Part shown: positions 3,401 through 50,917 of the stretch, piece by piece
Layout of the letters: the number at the start of each line of letters is the position of its first letter
How positions within the stretch are numbered: position 1 is the stretch's first letter
Assembly (NCBI RefSeq): GCF_036014115.1
Contig: NZ_CP107913.1
Location: 1,984,001-2,048,000 of the forward strand
Source of the DNA: Streptomyces sp. NBC_00448
GTDB lineage: Bacteria; Actinomycetota; Actinomycetes; Streptomycetales; Streptomycetaceae
Length of the DNA: 64,000 nucleotides
Direction of reading: 5' to 3'
Notes under the pieces: model-generated
Told to the model about the DNA's origin: nothing
Database searches by the model: none
Seen by the model: the letters and a program-made list of their open reading frames with translations, nothing else
Position numbers and translations under genes: made by a program

Positions 3401-4510
3401 GACCTGCGGCTGCACTCGGCCACCCCGATCACCGTGCACAGCACGGCCGTTGCCGTCACCGGCGCGTGGGTGCCGGACCGGCGCGCCTTCCCGCCGGCGC
3501 CCGCGATCACCACCCCGCGCGACGGCGGCACCGTGAAGCTCGACTCCGCGCTCGCGGGCACGGCCGTCCCGAACGGCACCGTGACGGTGCACGAGGGCGA
3601 CCGCACGCTGTGCACCGGCACCGCCGACGCGGGCGGCGCGTGGAGCTGCGCCCCCGACGGCGGGCTCACCGCCGGGCAGCAGACCGCCACCGCGACGGTC
3701 ACCGACCCGACCGGGCTGACCGGTGACGCCTCGGCCGCGGTCGGCTTCGACGCCTCCGACCTGCCGCCCGGCACCGCCGTGGTGGGCGCGGTGGTCGGCG
3801 CCACCAACCACGCCTACGGGATGAGCGAGGACGAGACCCCCTCCGGCGGCTTCGACGGCCCGACCACCGCCGCGGTGGTCGACGGACTGAGCGCCCGCAC
3901 CAGCACCGACTCCAACATCTACTTCGACATCGACGACACCGTCGCCCACGCCGGCGTCTACACCGCCGAGTTCACCGTCTCCTACTACGACCAGGGCGCC
4001 GGCTCGTTCAACGTGCAGTACGACGACGGCACCGCCAACCCCTACAAGTCCGCGCCCGCCATCGCCCTCACCGGCAGCGACACCTGGAAGACCGCGACGG
4101 TGACCGTGGCGGACGCCTACTTCGGCGGGCAGCAGCACTCCGCCGCCGACTTCCGGCTGCGCAACGGCGGCGGGCAGGTCACCGTGCACAGCGTCGCGGT
4201 GAAGATCACCGGCGACGGGGTGCCCGACACCGCCGCCTTCGCCCCGCCGGTCACCCTCACCTCCCCCGCGCCGGGCGCGACCGTCAGCGCCACCCCGGCG
4301 CTCACCGGCACCAGCGAGCCCGACGCCCAGGTCACCGTCACCGCCGAGGACTCCACGCCCGTCTGCGCGGCCACCGCGGCCGACGACGGCACCTGGACCT
4401 GCACCCCGTCCCAGGCCCTCACCGCCGGCCCGCACACCCTCACGGCAAGCGCCAAGGACCCGACGGGCACCCCCGCGAAGGACGCGGACGTGGCGGTCAC
4501 CGTCCAGTAG
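473..4510 (+). CDS. Secreted six-hairpin glycoside hydrolase (GH95/DUF5703-like) with duplicated C-terminal modules
   Basis: A 1345-aa predicted secreted enzyme likely acting on polysaccharide or glycan outside the cell. The GTG start is supported by GGAGG five bases upstream. Residues 1-41 form a signal peptide with Arg-Arg pairs and an AQA-type cleavage region. The motif TPLGNGSLG (85-93) and the next ~100 residues resemble the beta-sandwich N-domain of GH95/DUF5703 proteins, and residues ~300-780 read as an (alpha/alpha)6 barrel region. The C-terminus has a ~150-aa module (about 843-1000), an Ig-like domain (about 1006-1097), then a second copy of each (about 1101-1248 and 1256-1344), probably for carbohydrate or wall binding. 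Substrate is not deducible; a strict alpha-L-fucosidase call would be too specific. Confidence 0.7.
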   Translation: MQVISRSRRAPSRRGLALWSALLAALASSVLAGAAGAQAAAADTGKGTAAGTAWRQGAFHLDPTGVASRSDIVLGSPNTDPTASTPLGNGSLGVAAWAAGGFTAQLNRSDTMPNRKSPGQLTIPGLSAISHAADFHGRLDVSDGVLRESGGGMSLKAWVAAGKDELVVDVSGADPSIAQTASIDLWSPRKPAAAVTDRTGTLAETWVDGGSGGSGKTFGTLAALTAGGRQVSTTVAGPTRISTSFKPNADGTFRVVVAAPGWAGGTATRTPARTAAAVIGGDATARETSLLAAQDRWWDGYWTHSGLVEMDSADGSAAYLENLRTLYLYEEAASMKKGILPGSQAGEADMFAWDKDTQTWTPSAYWLWNLRTQISANMSSGNYALNTPIFDMYADDTAQIEAWTKTAMGGLPGSCVPETMRFNGNGGDLTPGANASCSEASSPNWNALDISSGPEVALYMWEQYQATGDKAALKKYFPFMKSTLAFQLAYQTVGKDGLLHADANAHETQWAVQDPTTDIAVDRTLFPIITQAAQALGTAKTTDAALLQQVAKAETQIPPYPRTDQATRTQLLNPDYSQAQTQAADATGTDMIAISYQPAAQRRNGENIELEPLWPWNTVSDQDTDLFALEQRSYDHRPNKGGNDWSMDAIDAARLQDPAEVRADLVSITEAHQVYPNGFADLGNSVGYQPYIEQESGAATAVDEALAQDYDGIVRFAPAWPSDWDGSGSVYLQHQNKADVQVQDGKLVTAAIEAGSTGTLKVKNPWPGQRVEVVDGRTGRTVVKAGTPALLDVPVRKGGSYLVQQVAAPTTALPYRPVTGSAPTAARHLGGVQIGLDHASTSGTSTVGTVLGDTNASFGLTQLDYTGSAGATTTAGTVAGLTARTTGTGTGTKSTGSDLYFGIADDTAATAKYDAKVTVSYYDAGTGTLALQYDAGPRHPYQQAATTVALHDTKTWRTAEFTLSGAYFGGLQSAGADLRLHSATPITVHSTAVAVTGAWVPDRRAFPPAPAITTPRDGGTVKLDSALAGTAVPNGTVTVHEGDRTLCTGTADAGGAWSCAPDGGLTAGQQTATATVTDPTGLTGDASAAVGFDASDLPPGTAVVGAVVGATNHAYGMSEDETPSGGFDGPTTAAVVDGLSARTSTDSNIYFDIDDTVAHAGVYTAEFTVSYYDQGAGSFNVQYDDGTANPYKSAPAIALTGSDTWKTATVTVADAYFGGQQHSAADFRLRNGGGQVTVHSVAVKITGDGVPDTAAFAPPVTLTSPAPGATVSATPALTGTSEPDAQVTVTAEDSTPVCAATAADDGTWTCTPSQALTAGPHTLTASAKDPTGTPAKDADVAVTVQ

Positions 4511-44967: not shown

Positions 44968-45177
44968 GTGAGCGACTTCGACGCCACGCACGCCATTCTC
45001 GGCAAGCTGGGCTATGGCCCAGGCTTTCGACGCCGACGAAGTACATCTGACGGGCGGGGAACCCACCCTGCACACCGAGGTGTCCGGCCTGATCTCCGGC
45101 CTCACCAGCATGGGCCGCAGCCCGCACTCCGTACCCCGCACCCCCGCACCCCCGGGGTGGATCGATTCGGAAACGTG
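44968..45177 (+). pseudogene. Frameshifted fragment of a radical SAM-like gene
   Basis: One frame from GTG 44968 reads VSDFDATHAILGKLGYG; a second frame from about 45013 reads AQAFDADEVHLTGGEPTLH then TEVSGLISGLTSMG before stopping at 45177. LTGGEPTLH is the S-adenosylmethionine contact motif of radical SAM enzymes. The Cys-x3-x-x-Cys cluster loop and the rest of the barrel are missing, so this is a decayed remnant rather than an active gene. The identification rests on one motif. Confidence 0.45.
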
Positions 45178-45239
45178 ATCGGTCCCGATCAGGAATCATC
45201 GTTGGACGCGGGCCGTATTCGTCCTGCATGCTTCCTGGC

Positions 45240-45398
45240 ATGACGACGCACATGCTCGCGGAGAGGCCCGGCCGGCACGGCCCGGCCCGCGGTGTCGCGT
45301 TCGTCGAGGTGCCCGCGCCGGCCGGTTCCCCGCTGCTCACCCAGCGCAGGGTCATCGACTTCGGCACCGGCACCTCCGCCGGCTGTCGCCGCGGCTAA
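45240..45398 (+). CDS. Putative regulatory leader peptide of the sulfonate operon
   Basis: A 52-aa reading frame beginning MTTHMLAERPGRHG and ending LLTQRRVIDFGTGTSAGCRR-G. The tail matches the pattern of short actinobacterial leader peptides found before sulfur-uptake operons, which carry a basic-His/Ile-Asp-Leu-like stretch and a Ser-Ala-x-Cys end. Translation of such Cys codons is thought to sense cysteine and set downstream expression. It precedes the ssu genes by 227 bases. CATGCT lies 7 bases before the ATG (leaderless). A shorter start at a GTG (VPAPAGSPLL) is also possible. Confidence 0.6.
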   Translation: MTTHMLAERPGRHGPARGVAFVEVPAPAGSPLLTQRRVIDFGTGTSAGCRRG

Positions 45399-45625
45399 CC
45401 GAGCCGTTCCACGGCAGCGGGCCGACCGCCAGGCCCCGCAGGCGGGTGACCGAACCCGCGCCCGTGGTGCGGCCCTTCGCGCGCCTCCCGCCACCGCAGC
45501 GGTACGCGTCACCGCAGCGCCGTACGCGTATCCACCCCGCCCCGTTCCCCGGCACCCCTGCCCCGTCGCGTTGCCGCGTGCCCCGAGCGCCGCGCGGTCC
45601 GCGCCCCTGCCCCAAGGACACCGCC

Positions 45626-46378
45626 ATGAGCTCCGTGAGCACCGTGCCCGACCCCACGTCATGGGAGATCCCGCCGTCGCTGAACCCGCGCGGCACCGTG
45701 CTGCTGCTGCCGGGCCGCGGCGAGGACCCGCGGCTGTACGAGCGGTTCGGCGCGCGGATCGCCGCGGACGCCTACCGGGTGCGGGCGGTGGCCGACCCGA
45801 GCAGGTGGCCGCGGGAGGCGGCGCGTCAGGTGAAGGAGGCGTTGGCGGAAGGGGAGCCGGCGAAGCCGCTGGTACTGGCGGGGTCGGACGCGGGCGCGCT
45901 GTTCGCGGTGGGCCTGGTGGCGGCCGGTGAGGTGGAGGTCGACGCGCTGGTGCTGGCCGGGCTTCCGACGAAGGACGTGGAGGCGGCCCAACCCGCCGAC
46001 TGGTCCGAGGAGTTGGGCTCGCGCACCGCGTGCCCCACCCACCAGGGCCGGCTGGCCGAGCCGGGGCGGCTGGAGCGCGGCGCGCTGTACGCGCCGCTGC
46101 CGCGGGAGTGGTACGACCGCGCGGACCTGTCGAAGGTCTCCGTGCCGGTGCTCGGTCTGCACGGCGCGGCCGACCCGGTCAGCCCGCCGGCCGCCGCGCG
46201 CACGGCGTACGCGGCCGCGCCCCGCGCGGAGTTGGTGACGCTCGCCGACGGACGGCACGACGCGTTCAACGACATCTCGCACCGCACCGCCGCCGCGACC
46301 GTGGTGCTGTTCCTGGAACGGCTGCGGCTCGGCGCGGACTTGGCACCCATCGCGAGCTCCGAAGAGCTGCCCCGATGA
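45626..46378 (+). CDS. Alpha/beta hydrolase of the sulfonate locus
   Basis: A 250-aa alpha/beta-fold protein. TVLLLPGRGEDPRLYERFG is the oxyanion-strand region; the elbow reads LAGSDAGALFA, so the nucleophile would be Ser followed by Asp; VLGLHGAADPVSP holds the acid and GRHDAFND the His. Its role beside sulfonate uptake genes is unknown; it may release or process the organosulfur substrate. The ATG follows AAGGA. Its stop overlaps the next start (ATGA). Confidence 0.75.
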   Translation: MSSVSTVPDPTSWEIPPSLNPRGTVLLLPGRGEDPRLYERFGARIAADAYRVRAVADPSRWPREAARQVKEALAEGEPAKPLVLAGSDAGALFAVGLVAAGEVEVDALVLAGLPTKDVEAAQPADWSEELGSRTACPTHQGRLAEPGRLERGALYAPLPREWYDRADLSKVSVPVLGLHGAADPVSPPAAARTAYAAAPRAELVTLADGRHDAFNDISHRTAAATVVLFLERLRLGADLAPIASSEELPR

Positions 46379-46668
46379 GCGGCGACGCGGCCGGACCGGG
46401 CCCGGCTCCCGTGCGCTACGTGGTCATCGGCGCGGGCGCGGTGGGCGTCACGCTCGCCGCCGGGCTGCACCGCACGGGCGCCGACGTGCTGCTGGTGGCC
46501 CGCGGCCGGCAACTCGCCGCGCTGCGCTCGGGCCGGCTGCGGCTGGTGCGGCCGGACGGCGCCGCGGCCGATGCGTCGTCCCATGCCGTTGCCGTTGCCG
46601 TTGCCGAGCCCGAGTCCGATGCCGACGTCGCACCCGAACGCGTCGGCCCCGAAGGGGGATTGCGATGA
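46375..46668 (+). CDS. Truncated ketopantoate-reductase-like Rossmann domain
   Basis: A 97-aa protein carrying only the nucleotide-binding start of the ApbA/PanE family: VRYVVIGAGAVGVTLAAGLH then ADVLLVARGRQLAALRSGRL. Normal members are about 300 residues and add a helical catalytic domain with Lys and Glu, absent here. The tail becomes repetitive (Ala-Val from three GCCGTT units) and ends at a stop overlapping the permease start (ATGA). It looks like an internally deleted gene whose ends were kept, preserving translational coupling to ssuC. Confidence 0.7.
   Translation: MSGDAAGPGPAPVRYVVIGAGAVGVTLAAGLHRTGADVLLVARGRQLAALRSGRLRLVRPDGAAADASSHAVAVAVAEPESDADVAPERVGPEGGLR
46585..46602 (+). repeat. 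Three tandem GCCGTT units
   Basis: The hexamer GCCGTT repeats three times, followed by GCCGAG, at the point where the truncated reductase loses family similarity. Slipped pairing at such a repeat could have caused the deletion. Confidence 0.7.
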
Positions 46669-47645
46669 GCACGAGTGAGATGTCCCGCCCGCCGAACGCC
46701 GCGACTGCCGGCACCGGCACCGGCACCGGCTGTCCCGCCACGCCAGAAGGCGGCGCGCGCCTGTCGAAGGAGCCGCCGGAGGACACCGGCCCCGTCGCGC
46801 CACCCGCGAACGACGGCGACCAGAGCGCCGAGAGCAGCGGCGACGTGGAGACGATCCGGCCGGCCCACGAGCGGCGCCGCCGCCAGGTGCCGCGGCCCCT
46901 GCGCCGGGCCTCGGGCCCGGTCGGCGCACTGCTGCTGTGGTGGCTGCTCAGCGCGACCGGGGTGCTCTCGCCCGACACCCTCGCCTCCCCGGTGCGGGTC
47001 TTCCACAAGGGCTGGAACCTGGCCGCCGACGGCCAACTCGGCTCCGCGATAAGGGTGTCCACCCAGCGCGTGATCGAGGGCTTCCTGATCGGCGCGGTCG
47101 CGGGCACCGCGCTGGCCCTGCTCGCCGGGCTGTTCCGGCTCGGCGAGGACCTGATCGACTCCACCGTCGGCATGCTGCGCGCGCTGCCCTGGGTGGGCCT
47201 GATCCCGCTGTTCATCGTCTGGTTCGGCATCGACGAGAAGCCCAAGATCGCGCTCGTGGTGATCGCGGTGACCTTCCCGCTGTACTTCAACATCTACGCC
47301 GGAATCCGTGGCGTGGACCCCCAACTGGTCGAGGCGGGAACGGTGTTGGGCCTCACCCGCTGGGGCCAGATTCGGCACATCGTGCTGCCGGGCGCGCTGC
47401 CCGGCGCCCTGGTCGGCCTGCGCTACGCCCTCGGCAGCGCCTGGCTCGCCCTGGTCTTCGCCGAGCAGATCAACGCGAGCAACGGCATCGGCTACCTCAT
47501 GAACAACGCCGAGCAGTTCTTCCAGACCGACGTGATCGTGGTCTGCCTGGTGGTCTACGCGGTGCTCGGCCTGATCAGCGACCTGATCGTGCGGCTCTGC
47601 ACCAAGTACCTGCTGTCCTGGCGCGCATCCTTCGACGGAGCATGA
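46665..47645 (+). CDS. ssuC: Sulfonate ABC transporter permease
   Basis: A 326-aa membrane subunit of an alkanesulfonate/taurine-type importer. About 80 polar N-terminal residues precede six helices. The coupling motif facing the ATPase reads EAGTVLGLTRWGQIRHIVLPGALPG, and ALPWVGLIPLFIVWFGI is typical of SsuC/NrtB permeases. Four-base overlaps join it to the genes before and after, so it is translated together with the ATPase SsuB. Confidence 0.9.
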   Translation: MSTSEMSRPPNAATAGTGTGTGCPATPEGGARLSKEPPEDTGPVAPPANDGDQSAESSGDVETIRPAHERRRRQVPRPLRRASGPVGALLLWWLLSATGVLSPDTLASPVRVFHKGWNLAADGQLGSAIRVSTQRVIEGFLIGAVAGTALALLAGLFRLGEDLIDSTVGMLRALPWVGLIPLFIVWFGIDEKPKIALVVIAVTFPLYFNIYAGIRGVDPQLVEAGTVLGLTRWGQIRHIVLPGALPGALVGLRYALGSAWLALVFAEQINASNGIGYLMNNAEQFFQTDVIVVCLVVYAVLGLISDLIVRLCTKYLLSWRASFDGA

Positions 47646-48499
47646 CGATGACGACTCCCACCGCACAGACTCACCCGACCGCGGACACATCAGAGGCCCG
47701 CACCGCGGACGGGACCGGCACCGGTGCCCGCCCCGACACCTCCGTACGCGTCCGGGGCCTGGTCCGCGCCTTCGACCGGCGCCGGGTCGTCGACGGGCTC
47801 GACCTCGACATCCGGCCGGGCGAGTTCGTCGCCCTGCTCGGGCACAGCGGGTGCGGCAAGAGCACCCTGCTGCGGGTGCTGGCCGGCCTCGACCGCGACA
47901 TCGAGGGCACCGTCACGGTGCCGCGGCGCCGCGCGGTGGCCTTCCAGGCGCCCCGGCTGCTGCCGTGGAAACGGGTGTGGCGCAACGTCGTACTGGGCCT
48001 GCCCGGCCGCGCCGACCGCGCGCTCGCCGAGCGCTACCTCGCCGAGGTCGGCCTGACCGAGCGTGCCGCCGTGTGGCCGAAGACGCTGTCCGGCGGCGAG
48101 GCGCAGCGCGTGTCGCTGGCCCGCGCGCTGGTACGGCAACCCGACCTGCTGCTGCTCGACGAGCCGTTCGGCGCGCTCGACGCGCTGACCAGGACCAACG
48201 CCCAAAGGTTGGTGGGCGAGTTGTGGTCCCGGCACAACTGCGGGGTCCTGCTGGTCACCCACGACGTGGAGGAGGCCGTACTGCTCGCCGACCGGGTGCT
48301 GGTCATGCGGGACGGCCGGATCGCCCACGAGGCGGTGGTCGACCTGCCCCGGCCACGCGACATCGGCGCACCCGAGTTCGTCGCGTTGCGTACGTCGCTG
48401 CTCGCCCGCCTCGGCGTCGGCCCGCACGACCCGAACGACCCGGCAGACCCCGCAGGCCCGGCCGACCCGGCCGACTTCGCAGACCCCGCCGACGCGTAG
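47642..48499 (+). CDS. ssuB: Sulfonate ABC transporter ATP-binding protein
   Basis: A 285-aa ATPase. Walker A GHSGCGKSTLL, Q-loop FQAPRLLPWKRVWRN, signature LSGGEAQRVSLARAL, Walker B LLLLDEPFGALDALT and H-loop VTHDVEEAV are all present. The Q-loop and short beta-hairpin are of SsuB/TauB type. The C-terminus has a (Asp-Pro-Ala)-rich tail of ~25 residues. It overlaps ssuC by four bases; 174 bases without a gene separate it from ssuA. Confidence 0.92.
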   Translation: MTMTTPTAQTHPTADTSEARTADGTGTGARPDTSVRVRGLVRAFDRRRVVDGLDLDIRPGEFVALLGHSGCGKSTLLRVLAGLDRDIEGTVTVPRRRAVAFQAPRLLPWKRVWRNVVLGLPGRADRALAERYLAEVGLTERAAVWPKTLSGGEAQRVSLARALVRQPDLLLLDEPFGALDALTRTNAQRLVGELWSRHNCGVLLVTHDVEEAVLLADRVLVMRDGRIAHEAVVDLPRPRDIGAPEFVALRTSLLARLGVGPHDPNDPADPAGPADPADFADPADA

Positions 48500-48673: not shown

Positions 48674-49798
48674 ATGCCCCGCCCCCTTCCGCGGCTCCTC
48701 GCCGCGGCCGCCGCCGTCACGCTCAGCCTCACGCTCCTCGCGGCCTGCGGCGACGCGAAGAAGACGGACACCCACGTCAAGGCCGCGTCCGGCGGCACCG
48801 ACCTGTCCGGCGTGACCTTGACGCTCGGCGACCAGGCCAACGGACTCCAGACCCTGCTCAACGCGGCCGGCACCCTCAAGAACACCCCGTACAAGGTGAA
48901 GTGGGCCGAGTTCCAGGGCGCGGCGCCGCTGTTCCAGGCGATGCAGAGCGGCCAGGTCGACACCGGCAGCGCCGCGGACCTGCCCACGCTCCAGGCGGTC
49001 AGCGGCGGCCTGAAGATCAAGCTGGTGGCCGCCTCGTCGGCCGACGGCTCCGGCACCGCGATCCTCACCCAGCCCGGTTCCGCGGTACGGACGGTCCAGG
49101 ACCTCAAGGGCAAGGACGTCGTGATCTCCTCGGCCAAGGGCAGCATCGCCGAGTACCTGCTGGCGAAGGCGCTCACCGACGCGGGCCTGAAGTACTCCGA
49201 CGTCCACGTGCAGTACCTGCTGCCGACCGCCGCGCAGGCCGCGTTCAACGCCAAGAAGATCGGCAACTGGGCGACGTTCGGCATCTACCAGGACATCGCC
49301 GTGCAGAAGGGCGCGAAGATCGTGGTGGACGGTCGGGACGGCCGTACCAGCGGGATCGGCTTCATCTCGGCCGCGCAGTCGTCGCTGACCGATCCGGCCC
49401 GCAAGGCGGCCATCGCCGACTTCCTCGGCCGGCTCGCCGAGGCGTACGCGTGGGCCGCCACCCACCGCGACCAGTACGCCCAGGTCTTCGCGCGGAAGAA
49501 CGGCGTGCCCCTGGACGTGGCGAAGACCGTGGTGGGGCAGGGCGCCGACTCCCTGGTGCCGGTCTCCCCCGCCGTCACCGCCAAGGTGCAGGCCGTATCG
49601 GACCTGATGCACACCATCGGCTCGCTCCCCACCGACGTGAAGGTGGCGGGCACCGTCGACACCTCCGCGTTCCCGCACGCCCTCGCGCCCACGACTGCCA
49701 CGACTGCCACGACGCCCACCGCGAGCACTTCCGCGAACCCGAACCCGAACGCGAACCCGTCCGCGACCTCGTCCGCCTCCGCGACCCCCGCCAACTGA
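48674..49798 (+). CDS. ssuA: Sulfonate-binding lipoprotein
   Basis: A 374-aa extracytoplasmic binding protein for organosulfonates. The signal peptide ends in a lipobox LLAAC (Cys25), so it is membrane-anchored. Two lobes follow, with AAPLFQAMQSGQVDTGSAAD and GKDVVISSAKGSIAEYLLAKA as SsuA/TauA-type motifs. The C-terminal ~35 residues are Thr/Ala/Asn/Pro-rich (NPNPNANPSA), likely a surface linker. The ATG follows GAGGA. It precedes ssuD by 15 bases. Confidence 0.9.
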   Translation: MPRPLPRLLAAAAAVTLSLTLLAACGDAKKTDTHVKAASGGTDLSGVTLTLGDQANGLQTLLNAAGTLKNTPYKVKWAEFQGAAPLFQAMQSGQVDTGSAADLPTLQAVSGGLKIKLVAASSADGSGTAILTQPGSAVRTVQDLKGKDVVISSAKGSIAEYLLAKALTDAGLKYSDVHVQYLLPTAAQAAFNAKKIGNWATFGIYQDIAVQKGAKIVVDGRDGRTSGIGFISAAQSSLTDPARKAAIADFLGRLAEAYAWAATHRDQYAQVFARKNGVPLDVAKTVVGQGADSLVPVSPAVTAKVQAVSDLMHTIGSLPTDVKVAGTVDTSAFPHALAPTTATTATTPTASTSANPNPNANPSATSSASATPAN

Positions 49799-49813: not shown

Positions 49814-50917
49814 ATGCCCGTCGAGTTCATCAGCGCCACGCACACCACCAACACCACCGAGGCCACCGCCGGCGGCCGGCACGCCGGCTTCGACGTCGAC
49901 TACACCCGCCGTTTCGTACGGGCCCTGGACGACGGCGGTTTCGACTGGACGCTGGTCGCCTACAGCTCCGCCGGCGTCGACGCCGAGCAGATCGCCCAGT
50001 TCGTCGTGAACAACTCCGAGCGGGTCAAGCCGATGCTCGCGCACCGTCCCGGCTTCGTCTTCCCCACCCGGGTCGCCAAGGCGCTCGCCACCATCGACCG
50101 GATCGGCAAGGGCCGGCTCGGCCTGCACATCATCTCCGGCGGCAACGACACGGAGCAGGCCCGCGAGGGCGACTACCTCACCAAGGTCCAGCGGTACGCC
50201 CGCTCCGAGGAGTTCATCCGGGTGCTGCGCCAGGTGTGGGCGGCGACCGGGCCGATCAGCCACGCGGGAGAGTACTACCGGTTCGAGGGGTTCGCCACGG
50301 ACATCAAGCCGTACCAGGACGCCATCCCCATCTCGGTCGGCGGCTCCTCACGGGAGGCGTACGAGGTCGGCGGGCGGCAGGGCGACATCTTCGGGCTGTG
50401 GGGCGAGCCGCTCAAGGAGACCGCCGAGCAGATCGCCGCCGTCAACGCCGTGGCCGACGCGGCGGGCCGCCCGCACCCGCGGATCTGGGTCTCGTTCCGC
50501 CCGATCGTGGCCGCCACCGACGAACTCGCCTGGGAGAAGGCGCACCGCATCCTCGGCCAGGTCAAGGAGACGGTGGCGGCGACCCCGAAGGGCGCGCGCT
50601 ACCCCGCCCCCGGGGACGGCCGCCCCGCGAACGTCGGCTCGCAGCGGCTGCTCGACGTCGCCGCGCGCGGCGAGCTGCACGACCGCGCGCTGTGGACGCC
50701 GCTGGTCACCGCGACCAACGCGGCGGGCAGTTCCACGGCACTGGTCGGCAGCTACGAGACGGTGGCCAAGGCGCTGCTGGACTACGTCGACATCGGGTGC
50801 GAGCTGCTGTCGATCCGCGGGTACGACCCGCTCAACGACGCGATCGACTACGCACGGTACGTCCTGCCCCTGGTCCGCCAGGAACTCGCGCACCGGGGTA
50901 CACCCGTCGCCGCGTGA
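49814..50917 (+). CDS. ssuD: FMNH2-dependent alkanesulfonate monooxygenase
   Basis: A 367-aa bacterial-luciferase-like flavin monooxygenase that cleaves the C-S bond of sulfonates to aldehyde and sulfite. Family motifs are GFDWTLVAYSSAG, AHRPGFVFPTRVAKALATID, GRLGLHIISGGNDTEQAREGD and ISVGGSSREAY. It needs reduced FMN from a separate reductase, probably the one at 52149. It ends the ssu operon, followed by hairpins. Some members of this clade act on other organosulfur compounds, so the precise sulfonate is uncertain. Confidence 0.88.
   Translation: MPVEFISATHTTNTTEATAGGRHAGFDVDYTRRFVRALDDGGFDWTLVAYSSAGVDAEQIAQFVVNNSERVKPMLAHRPGFVFPTRVAKALATIDRIGKGRLGLHIISGGNDTEQAREGDYLTKVQRYARSEEFIRVLRQVWAATGPISHAGEYYRFEGFATDIKPYQDAIPISVGGSSREAYEVGGRQGDIFGLWGEPLKETAEQIAAVNAVADAAGRPHPRIWVSFRPIVAATDELAWEKAHRILGQVKETVAATPKGARYPAPGDGRPANVGSQRLLDVAARGELHDRALWTPLVTATNAAGSSTALVGSYETVAKALLDYVDIGCELLSIRGYDPLNDAIDYARYVLPLVRQELAHRGTPVAA

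Follow-up and report, generated by a model that had tools for sequence, protein, structure and literature searches.

A conserved leader ORF upstream of a hydrolase-ssu operon in Streptomyces sp. NBC_00448 resembles the actinobacterial Cys leaders and carries a near-invariant UGU codon near its end

Introduction

Does the short open reading frame that lies ahead of a set of sulfonate-type genes in Streptomyces sp. NBC_00448 encode a leader peptide and, if so, what would that leader sense? The source genome is a single contig of 9.65 Mb, of which we analyzed the 64,000 nt from 1984001 to 2048000 (called the window; positions below are those of the window). A first-pass annotation had described a coding-biased short frame just 5' of the sulfonate genes, and all of its elements were present: the frame, its tail, a 227-nt gap and a sulfonate-type operon.

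Results

The leader ORF and its promoter

The frame (45240-45398, + strand) runs from the ATG at 45240 to a TAA that ends at 45398, and encodes 52 residues plus the stop with a C-terminus that reads LLTQRRVIDFGTGTSAGCRRG. G or C occupies the third position of 49 of the 52 codons. The peptide contains a single cysteine, residue 49, and its UGU codon (45384-45386, +), the presumed sensing codon, is located within a tail, LTQRRVIDFGTGTSAGCR (45336-45389, +), that is conserved in the alignment of relatives. As a second in-frame ATG at 45228 falls within the -10-like box, the likely product has 52 rather than 56 residues. The GTG at 45309 was disfavored as the start because both the promoter spacing and the near-full-length homologs favor ATG 45240.

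Upstream of the frame are a -35-like TTGGAC (45202-45207, +) and a -10-like CATGCT (45227-45232, +), giving the layout TTGGAC, 19 nt, CATGCT, 7 nt, ATG 45240. The TTGGAC, the CA..CT of the -10-like box and the ATG are unchanged in all nine aligned loci, with spacers of 18-19 nt and 6-7 nt, and by reading CATGAT stands 6 nt before the ATG in most of 37 Streptomyces-type loci. A strict sigma-70 scan returned zero promoters; CATGCT has only three of the six consensus bases and the spacer is beyond the limit of the scan. The -10-like box stands 6-7 nt 5' of the ATG in 9/9 aligned loci, a spacing that fits a predicted leaderless transcript starting at or beside ATG 45240, as first suspected. The 52-residue frame is confirmed as a conserved, apparently leaderless leader ORF, and the original observation was real.

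A near-palindrome, TGATCGGTCCCGATCA (45176-45191, +), of the form TGATCG-ATCn-CGATCA adjoins the -35-like box on its upstream side, is conserved in the nine aligned upstream regions and could be an operator to which a regulator binds. A role as an operator used throughout the genome was set aside; the sequence occurs once exactly, with four one-mismatch rows and 71 strand-wise matches with two or fewer mismatches. Farther upstream, the short frame at 45014-45175 matches radical-SAM (MoaA-like) proteins weakly (E 8e-4) and appears to be the remains of a gene.

The downstream operon

The 227 bases between leader and operon (45399-45625) agree with the spacing first given. The first gene of the operon (45626-46378, +) encodes an alpha/beta hydrolase (Pfam PF12146, 3.8e-12), and AAGGAC (45614-45619, +), 6 nt before its ATG at 45626, is the likely ribosome-binding site (RBS). 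Then follow, on the same strand, a 97-residue PanE-like N-terminal fragment (46375-46668; TIGR00745, 6.6e-12 over 72 residues), an SsuC-like permease (46665-47645; NF008470, 1.1e-64, below cut-off), an SsuB-like ATP-binding protein (47642-48499; NF008420, 1.2e-73, below cut-off), an SsuA-like substrate-binding protein (48674-49798; TIGR01728, 1.7e-43, just below cut-off) and an SsuD-like LLM monooxygenase (49814-50917; TIGR03565, 1.7e-48, below cut-off; PF00296, 7.4e-57). As all of the operon genes score under the curated equivalog cut-offs, ssu is used here as a family-level name. In one relative (L073) the PanE position is taken by a frame on the 627-residue scale that reads as a PanE-rhodanese fusion, and in two Streptomyces loci (L075 and L113) the second gene is rhodanese-like by gene-by-gene reading. 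In the window, most of such a PanE-rhodanese-type gene has apparently been lost, and the 97-residue fragment is what is left.

Conservation of the leader and linkage to the operon

Near-full-length relatives of the 52-residue query were found in six genomes of the same genus (E 3e-18 to 5e-7), and nine aligned leaders have in common M1, L33, T34, R36, R37, V38, D40, F41, G42, C49 and R50. We assembled a subfamily of 54 leaders (that of the window, L073-L115 and ten more loci; the operon after L114 is a different one), in which synonymous codons vary at Thr, both Arg, Val, Ile and Gly. Retention of the peptide despite this synonymous variation indicates that selection acts on the peptide. The SA-x-C end, the conservation of which in relatives the first-pass annotation had made decisive for its proposal, persisted: Cys is at D+9 in 54/54, Ser at D+6 in 48/54 and Ala at D+7 in 45/54.

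A profile search of 35 genomes of the genus gave leader matches at E 1e-3 in 11, or in 10 once a weak match in G027, which falls within a 591-aa open frame, was discounted. Those 10 are exactly the genomes with a hydrolase homolog at E 1e-63 or better, a boundary between close and weak homologs that was set post hoc with the results already known. Nine of the remaining genomes have weaker hydrolase homologs and no leader match at E 1e-3, and 16 lack a homolog at E 1e-10. In the family, 44 of 394 genomes gave a leader match at E 1e-4, some of these being weak and inside long frames. Among named genomes the leader was confirmed at 43 loci by a scan with the pattern LT[QK]RRV[IV]DF, which biases the set to window-type tails and may have omitted the window's own record. 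At 40 of the 43 loci the hydrolase gene follows downstream on the same strand, together with one or more of the genes for SsuC, SsuB, SsuA and the LLM protein. The exceptions are L111, where the sequence stops 275 nt past the leader, L115, at which the hydrolase is replaced by an SsuA match 121 nt downstream, and L114, a Dormibacteraeota metagenome-assembled genome (MAG) with neither hydrolase nor ssu gene. Judged from these genome comparisons, the association of leader and operon exceeds chance.

Two of the exceptional loci have features of their own. In A. oryziradicis, L115 and L021 (G029:C346:37117-38425) form a divergent leader pair about 1.2 kb apart, with the hydrolase after one and an SsuA-like gene after the other. 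The L114 leader (3780-3860) reads NLTQRRVVDFSHCTSAACK with UGU as its last Cys codon, and its next gene reads as cysteine-dioxygenase-like; either the family is widely spread or the contig is misbinned.

The first-pass remark that the peptide is longer than usual fits the genus, in which leaders have 38-54 residues, but does not carry over to its orthologs, since leaders of 27-28 residues precede the same operon at 37 of the 43 named loci (36 named Streptomyces plus L103). Two other Streptomyces loci, L111 and L113, have 44-residue leaders. The occurrence of the 27-28 residue orthologs before the same operon argues that the long N-terminus is dispensable.

Relationship to the actinobacterial Cys leaders

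Neither the 52- nor the 29-residue form of the peptide matched NF042934 (cut-off 27 bits) at E 10, the leader locus is absent from the 19 NF042934 matches in its own genome, and the peptide is below the reach of all NCBIfam and Pfam models. Three of the cousins scanned (L069, L070 and L072), with LTSRRHIDFGRTSSAICR-like tails, scored over the NF042934 cut-off. In that scan L113 and L114 were wrong-frame stretches and L081 and L066 were shortened, and the blanks for L113, L114 and L081 carry little weight. An Arg at -13, an Asp at -9 and the terminal Cys, at fixed spacing, are found in 110/110 NF042934 hits and in 54/54 subfamily leaders. The window leader shares this Arg, Asp and Cys spacing with NF042934 (cis_reg_atten, 'putative leader peptide'), NF042936 (leader_Ms4527A) and NF042933 (leader_Ms5788A, 'Cys-rich leader peptide'), together with a last Cys encoded by UGU and a sulfur-type operon downstream. 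The differences lie after the Asp, where position -8 is Leu and position -6 Arg in 110/110 NF042934 hits whereas the window subfamily has Phe-Gly for Leu-x (Phe in 54/54) and has lost Arg -6 in 52/54 (retained in 2/54), and in length, the NF042934-type leaders being short ORFs and the window leader having 52 residues.

The source genome has 19 NF042934 matches at E 10, six of them over the cut-off, and matches at E 10 in 10 of 14 control genomes included none over it. Class-wide, hits at E 1e-4 were found in 181 of 296 genomes, with 177 over the cut-off (controls 0/14). The best 12 of the 19 own-genome matches (E up to 0.15) were taken as candidate leaders. By NCBIfam, and with several names below equivalog cut-offs, the next genes encode an LLM monooxygenase (L116, L118 and L119), a nitrite/sulfite-reductase-family protein (L117), a 3-mercaptopyruvate-type sulfurtransferase (L120), an O-acetylhomoserine/O-acetylserine sulfhydrylase (L126), a dicarboxylate-type symporter (L123), a permease closest to cystine permeases (L124) and a peptide/nickel-type binding protein (L127). 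By reading, L121 precedes a cysteine-dioxygenase-like gene (no NCBIfam hit at 1e-25), L122 a small sulfur-carrier and cysteine-synthase pair and L125 an ABC permease. Thus, 8/12 are apparently sulfur-related and 4/12 precede transporters without a clear substrate. Two of the candidates, L116 and L125 (G000:C1:1911972-1912564), are divergent and about 0.5 kb apart, before the LLM monooxygenase and the ABC permease.

The likeness of the tail to leaders of sulfur operons, noted at the outset, was thereby borne out, via the cousins over the NF042934 cut-off and the 12 own-genome candidates. By motif and spacing the window leader is a divergent variant of the actinobacterial Cys leaders (NF042934, Ms4527A and Ms5788A) that those models miss. 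Three loci of another Streptomycetaceae genus (L063, L064 and L066) carry a further subfamily, PLLTxRRxVDFGxxxSAxCR, also with UGU, and genes of the window operon are absent from about 1.5 kb around them.

The last motif Cys codon is UGU

UGU encodes the last Cys of the motif in 54/54 subfamily leaders, in 12/12 own-genome candidates and in 7/7 cousins. For the remaining cysteines beyond the Asp, the 54 leaders use UGC (40) more often than UGU (8): the D+5 Cys is UGC in 35/35 and the D+8 Cys, directly before the last Cys, is UGU in 5/5. Class-wide, UGU was found in 109/110 leaders, the single UGC being that of L244. These 110 leaders (30 loci plus 80 hand-picked from listed rows; 95 genomes of 42 genera; 103 distinct motif DNAs) are related by descent, and nominal p-values for the bias are therefore too favorable. 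NF042934 scores protein and thus could not have preferred UGU.

Other Cys positions of the motif and ordinary genes favor UGC. Earlier motif Cys codons of the 110 leaders are UGC 112 and UGU 15, long ORFs of the same loci have UGC 622 and UGU 105, and those of the window have UGC 177 and UGU 18; between motif and stop UGU is raised too (UGC 47, UGU 31). A or T occupies the third position at a frequency of 0.99 at the last Cys codon versus at most 0.27 at the 17 preceding codons. The Cys-Arg pair at -7/-6 uses UGC 60 times and UGU 3 times, whereas a last Cys that directly precedes Arg has UGU in 49 cases and UGC in one. The codon after the last Cys varies (CGC 33, TGT 12 and others in the 110 leaders).

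ARAGORN found two tRNA-Cys genes in the source genome, both with anticodon GCA (63 tRNA matches, one of which, in L312, is without identity), and UGU should therefore be read by wobble. Selective charging of isoacceptors is offered as a cause of E. coli attenuator codon bias in passages of PMC1183508, but does not explain UGU where one anticodon reads both Cys codons, as in the source genome. The literature searched, outside which lie subscription papers such as Canestrari et al. 2020, contained no publication on such a UGU rule. The presumed sensing Cys is almost always encoded by the same rare codon, a family-wide rule.

A proposed mechanism

The comparisons show that coding is conserved, that the promoter has a spacing of the leaderless type, that the leader is linked to ssu genes, that UGU is near-invariant and that the gap is C-rich. 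Translation of the leader, the stall and the cysteine signal we infer. Given these sequence data, we think it rather probable that the hydrolase-ssu operon is controlled by a leader peptide that responds to cysteine and belongs with the actinobacterial Cys leaders. Transcription would start at or beside ATG 45240 and a ribosome would translate the 52-codon ORF. When cysteinyl-tRNA is scarce, the ribosome would stall with UGU 45384-45386 in the A site, and the conserved tail of the nascent chain may strengthen the stall. Held three sense codons short of the stop, the ribosome would cover the start of the 227-nt C-rich gap and so block Rho (or another silencing step), and the hydrolase-ssu operon would be on and sulfonate sulfur scavenged. 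With ample cysteine, the ribosome would finish, the gap would be exposed and expression would drop. Counting against the cysteine-leader reading are that no NCBIfam model is reached, that two otherwise fixed motif columns are changed and that the leader has a lone Cys rather than a run.

The gap and the output step

The gap (45399-45625, +) has 112 C, 70 G, 23 A and 22 T and is a possible Rho-loading region. The terminator hairpin and U-run of a classical attenuator are absent from the window leader, zero intrinsic terminators being found in 45100-45750, and the gap folds no better than its shuffles (z +0.71). RNAalifold on 37 loci gave scattered pairs only and no conserved gap fold, and Rfam gave one match, on the opposite strand (E 1.3, far under the gathering score). 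The C-rich, G-poor RNA past the leader stop that characterizes Rho-dependent attenuators is present in the window, and recurs in the relatives. In pooled composition 43 gaps are 46% C and 24% G, and the (C-G)/(C+G) skew averages 0.34 in 37 Streptomyces-type gaps, every one above 0, versus -0.015 in 45 control gaps of the named loci, 2% of which reach 0.31. The skew is 0.23 in the window gap and 0.09-0.47 in the 12 own-genome candidates. Class-wide, the 100 nt past the leader stop have a mean skew of 0.20 (n=110) that fades after about 150 nt, versus 0.004 for 20 other gaps of those loci and 0.01 for 109 stretches upstream. In its composition, which is no proof of a Rho site, the gap fits Rho-dependent attenuation. 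The weakest link is the assignment of the output to Rho, which, given the rest of the mechanism, we put at somewhat less than an even chance.

Streptomyces-type gaps, for example that of L081 from leader stop to hydrolase, contain CTGACACGTG in 28/37 cases, mostly within the near-palindrome CTGACACGTGACAG; neither element was seen in the window gap.

The same cysteine sensor could instead act by translation attenuation, in which the gap RNA would hide the hydrolase RBS until a Cys-stalled ribosome opened it, as for mycobacterial leaders. There is precedent, as leaderless M. smegmatis ORFs with contiguous Cys codons are described in passages of PMC9031893 as regulating downstream translation by attenuation, a term also used in parts of PMC13236596. 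We modeled this for 43 leaders out of the 54 (the window leader, those of 34 Streptomyces-type loci and eight more), leaving out L076, L079 and L086 by choice and L049, L050, L053, L065, L068, L111, L114 and L115, at which the next gene start was unmapped. With the RNA blocked as far as the stalled ribosome, accessibility of the RBS rose by more than 0.05 in five and fell in six (means 0.361 versus 0.366 free), although such modeling is weak for GC-rich RNA. Opening of the RBS by a stalled ribosome was set aside for want of a consistent effect across the 43 loci. The ordinary folding of the window gap also speaks against this output, which we consider unlikely.

The UGU bears on another alternative, that cysteine is sensed only as the amino acid and the codon is retained for its role in the RNA, in pairing or in a protein-binding site, and not for how it is decoded. 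Across the 37 Streptomyces-type loci the tail DNA is highly conserved, and several of them have a GACAG farther downstream with which CTGTC could pair. However, UGU is retained before unrelated operons in the varied contexts noted above, and the other codons of the motif are unconstrained at their third bases, making this reading improbable. The GACAG pairing itself was set aside because UGU stands in other contexts at other operons and the tail varies too little for covariation. That the peptide acts in trans as a small protein, or that the frame has no regulatory role, is very improbable: peptide-level conservation alone would fit, but the linkage to one operon is strict, the N-terminal half is lost in Streptomyces and a trans-acting peptide needs no codon-level conservation at one residue.

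Discussion

The cysteine-responsive leader proposed here has counterparts among known and suggested attenuators. Like the window leader, for which a leaderless transcript is predicted, the polycysteine leaderless ORFs of mycobacteria, reportedly the subject of Canestrari et al. 2020, are short ORFs with Cys near the end, sulfur genes downstream and cysteine as the proposed signal. They have a Cys run whereas the window leader has one Cys, although some of its relatives have CC or CxC, and their reported output is translation attenuation, for which modeling of window-type leaders gave no support. In the tnaC system, in which the signal is free tryptophan, a ribosome stalled near the leader stop masks a Rho-loading site much as proposed for the window, where Rho is a proposal from composition.

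The mycobacterial ORFs are treated in parts of PMC9031893, PMC13236596 and PMC9094748, and tnaC-type Rho-dependent attenuation of E. coli is mentioned in passages of PMC1262725. Those passages (2005) describe candidate cys-operon leaders in Mycobacterium, Propionibacterium and Bifidobacterium that, like the window leader, have Cys codons near the stop and no terminator and for which Rho is suggested, with reserve for those of mycobacteria. These leaders differ in having runs of Cys codons, and ssu operons and Streptomycetaceae lie outside the coverage of the passages. The uORFC-8-2 motif 5' of cysS in Rhodobacterales is likewise a Cys-codon leader, for which parts of PMC8632094 propose ribosome-mediated attenuation, but there UGC is the preferred, dominant codon and a terminator is present, whereas UGU is near-invariant in the window family and a terminator was not found at the window.

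A tentative extension, which we rate slightly below even, is that the family is a codon-specific sensor: the nascent motif would hold the ribosome, reading of UGU through the G34-U3 wobble of tRNA-Cys(GCA) would be rate-limiting, and codon identity, beyond the amino acid itself, would be a regulatory input common to many sulfur operons of actinobacteria. If so, UGU could report the state of tRNA-Cys (charging or anticodon-loop modification) with a gain beyond that of UGC. A UGU to UGC change leaves the peptide unaltered and is hence a direct probe of the mode of cysteine sensing. For the actinobacterial Cys leaders as a whole, the window locus adds a putative leader subfamily outside the curated models and links sulfonate scavenging to this family.
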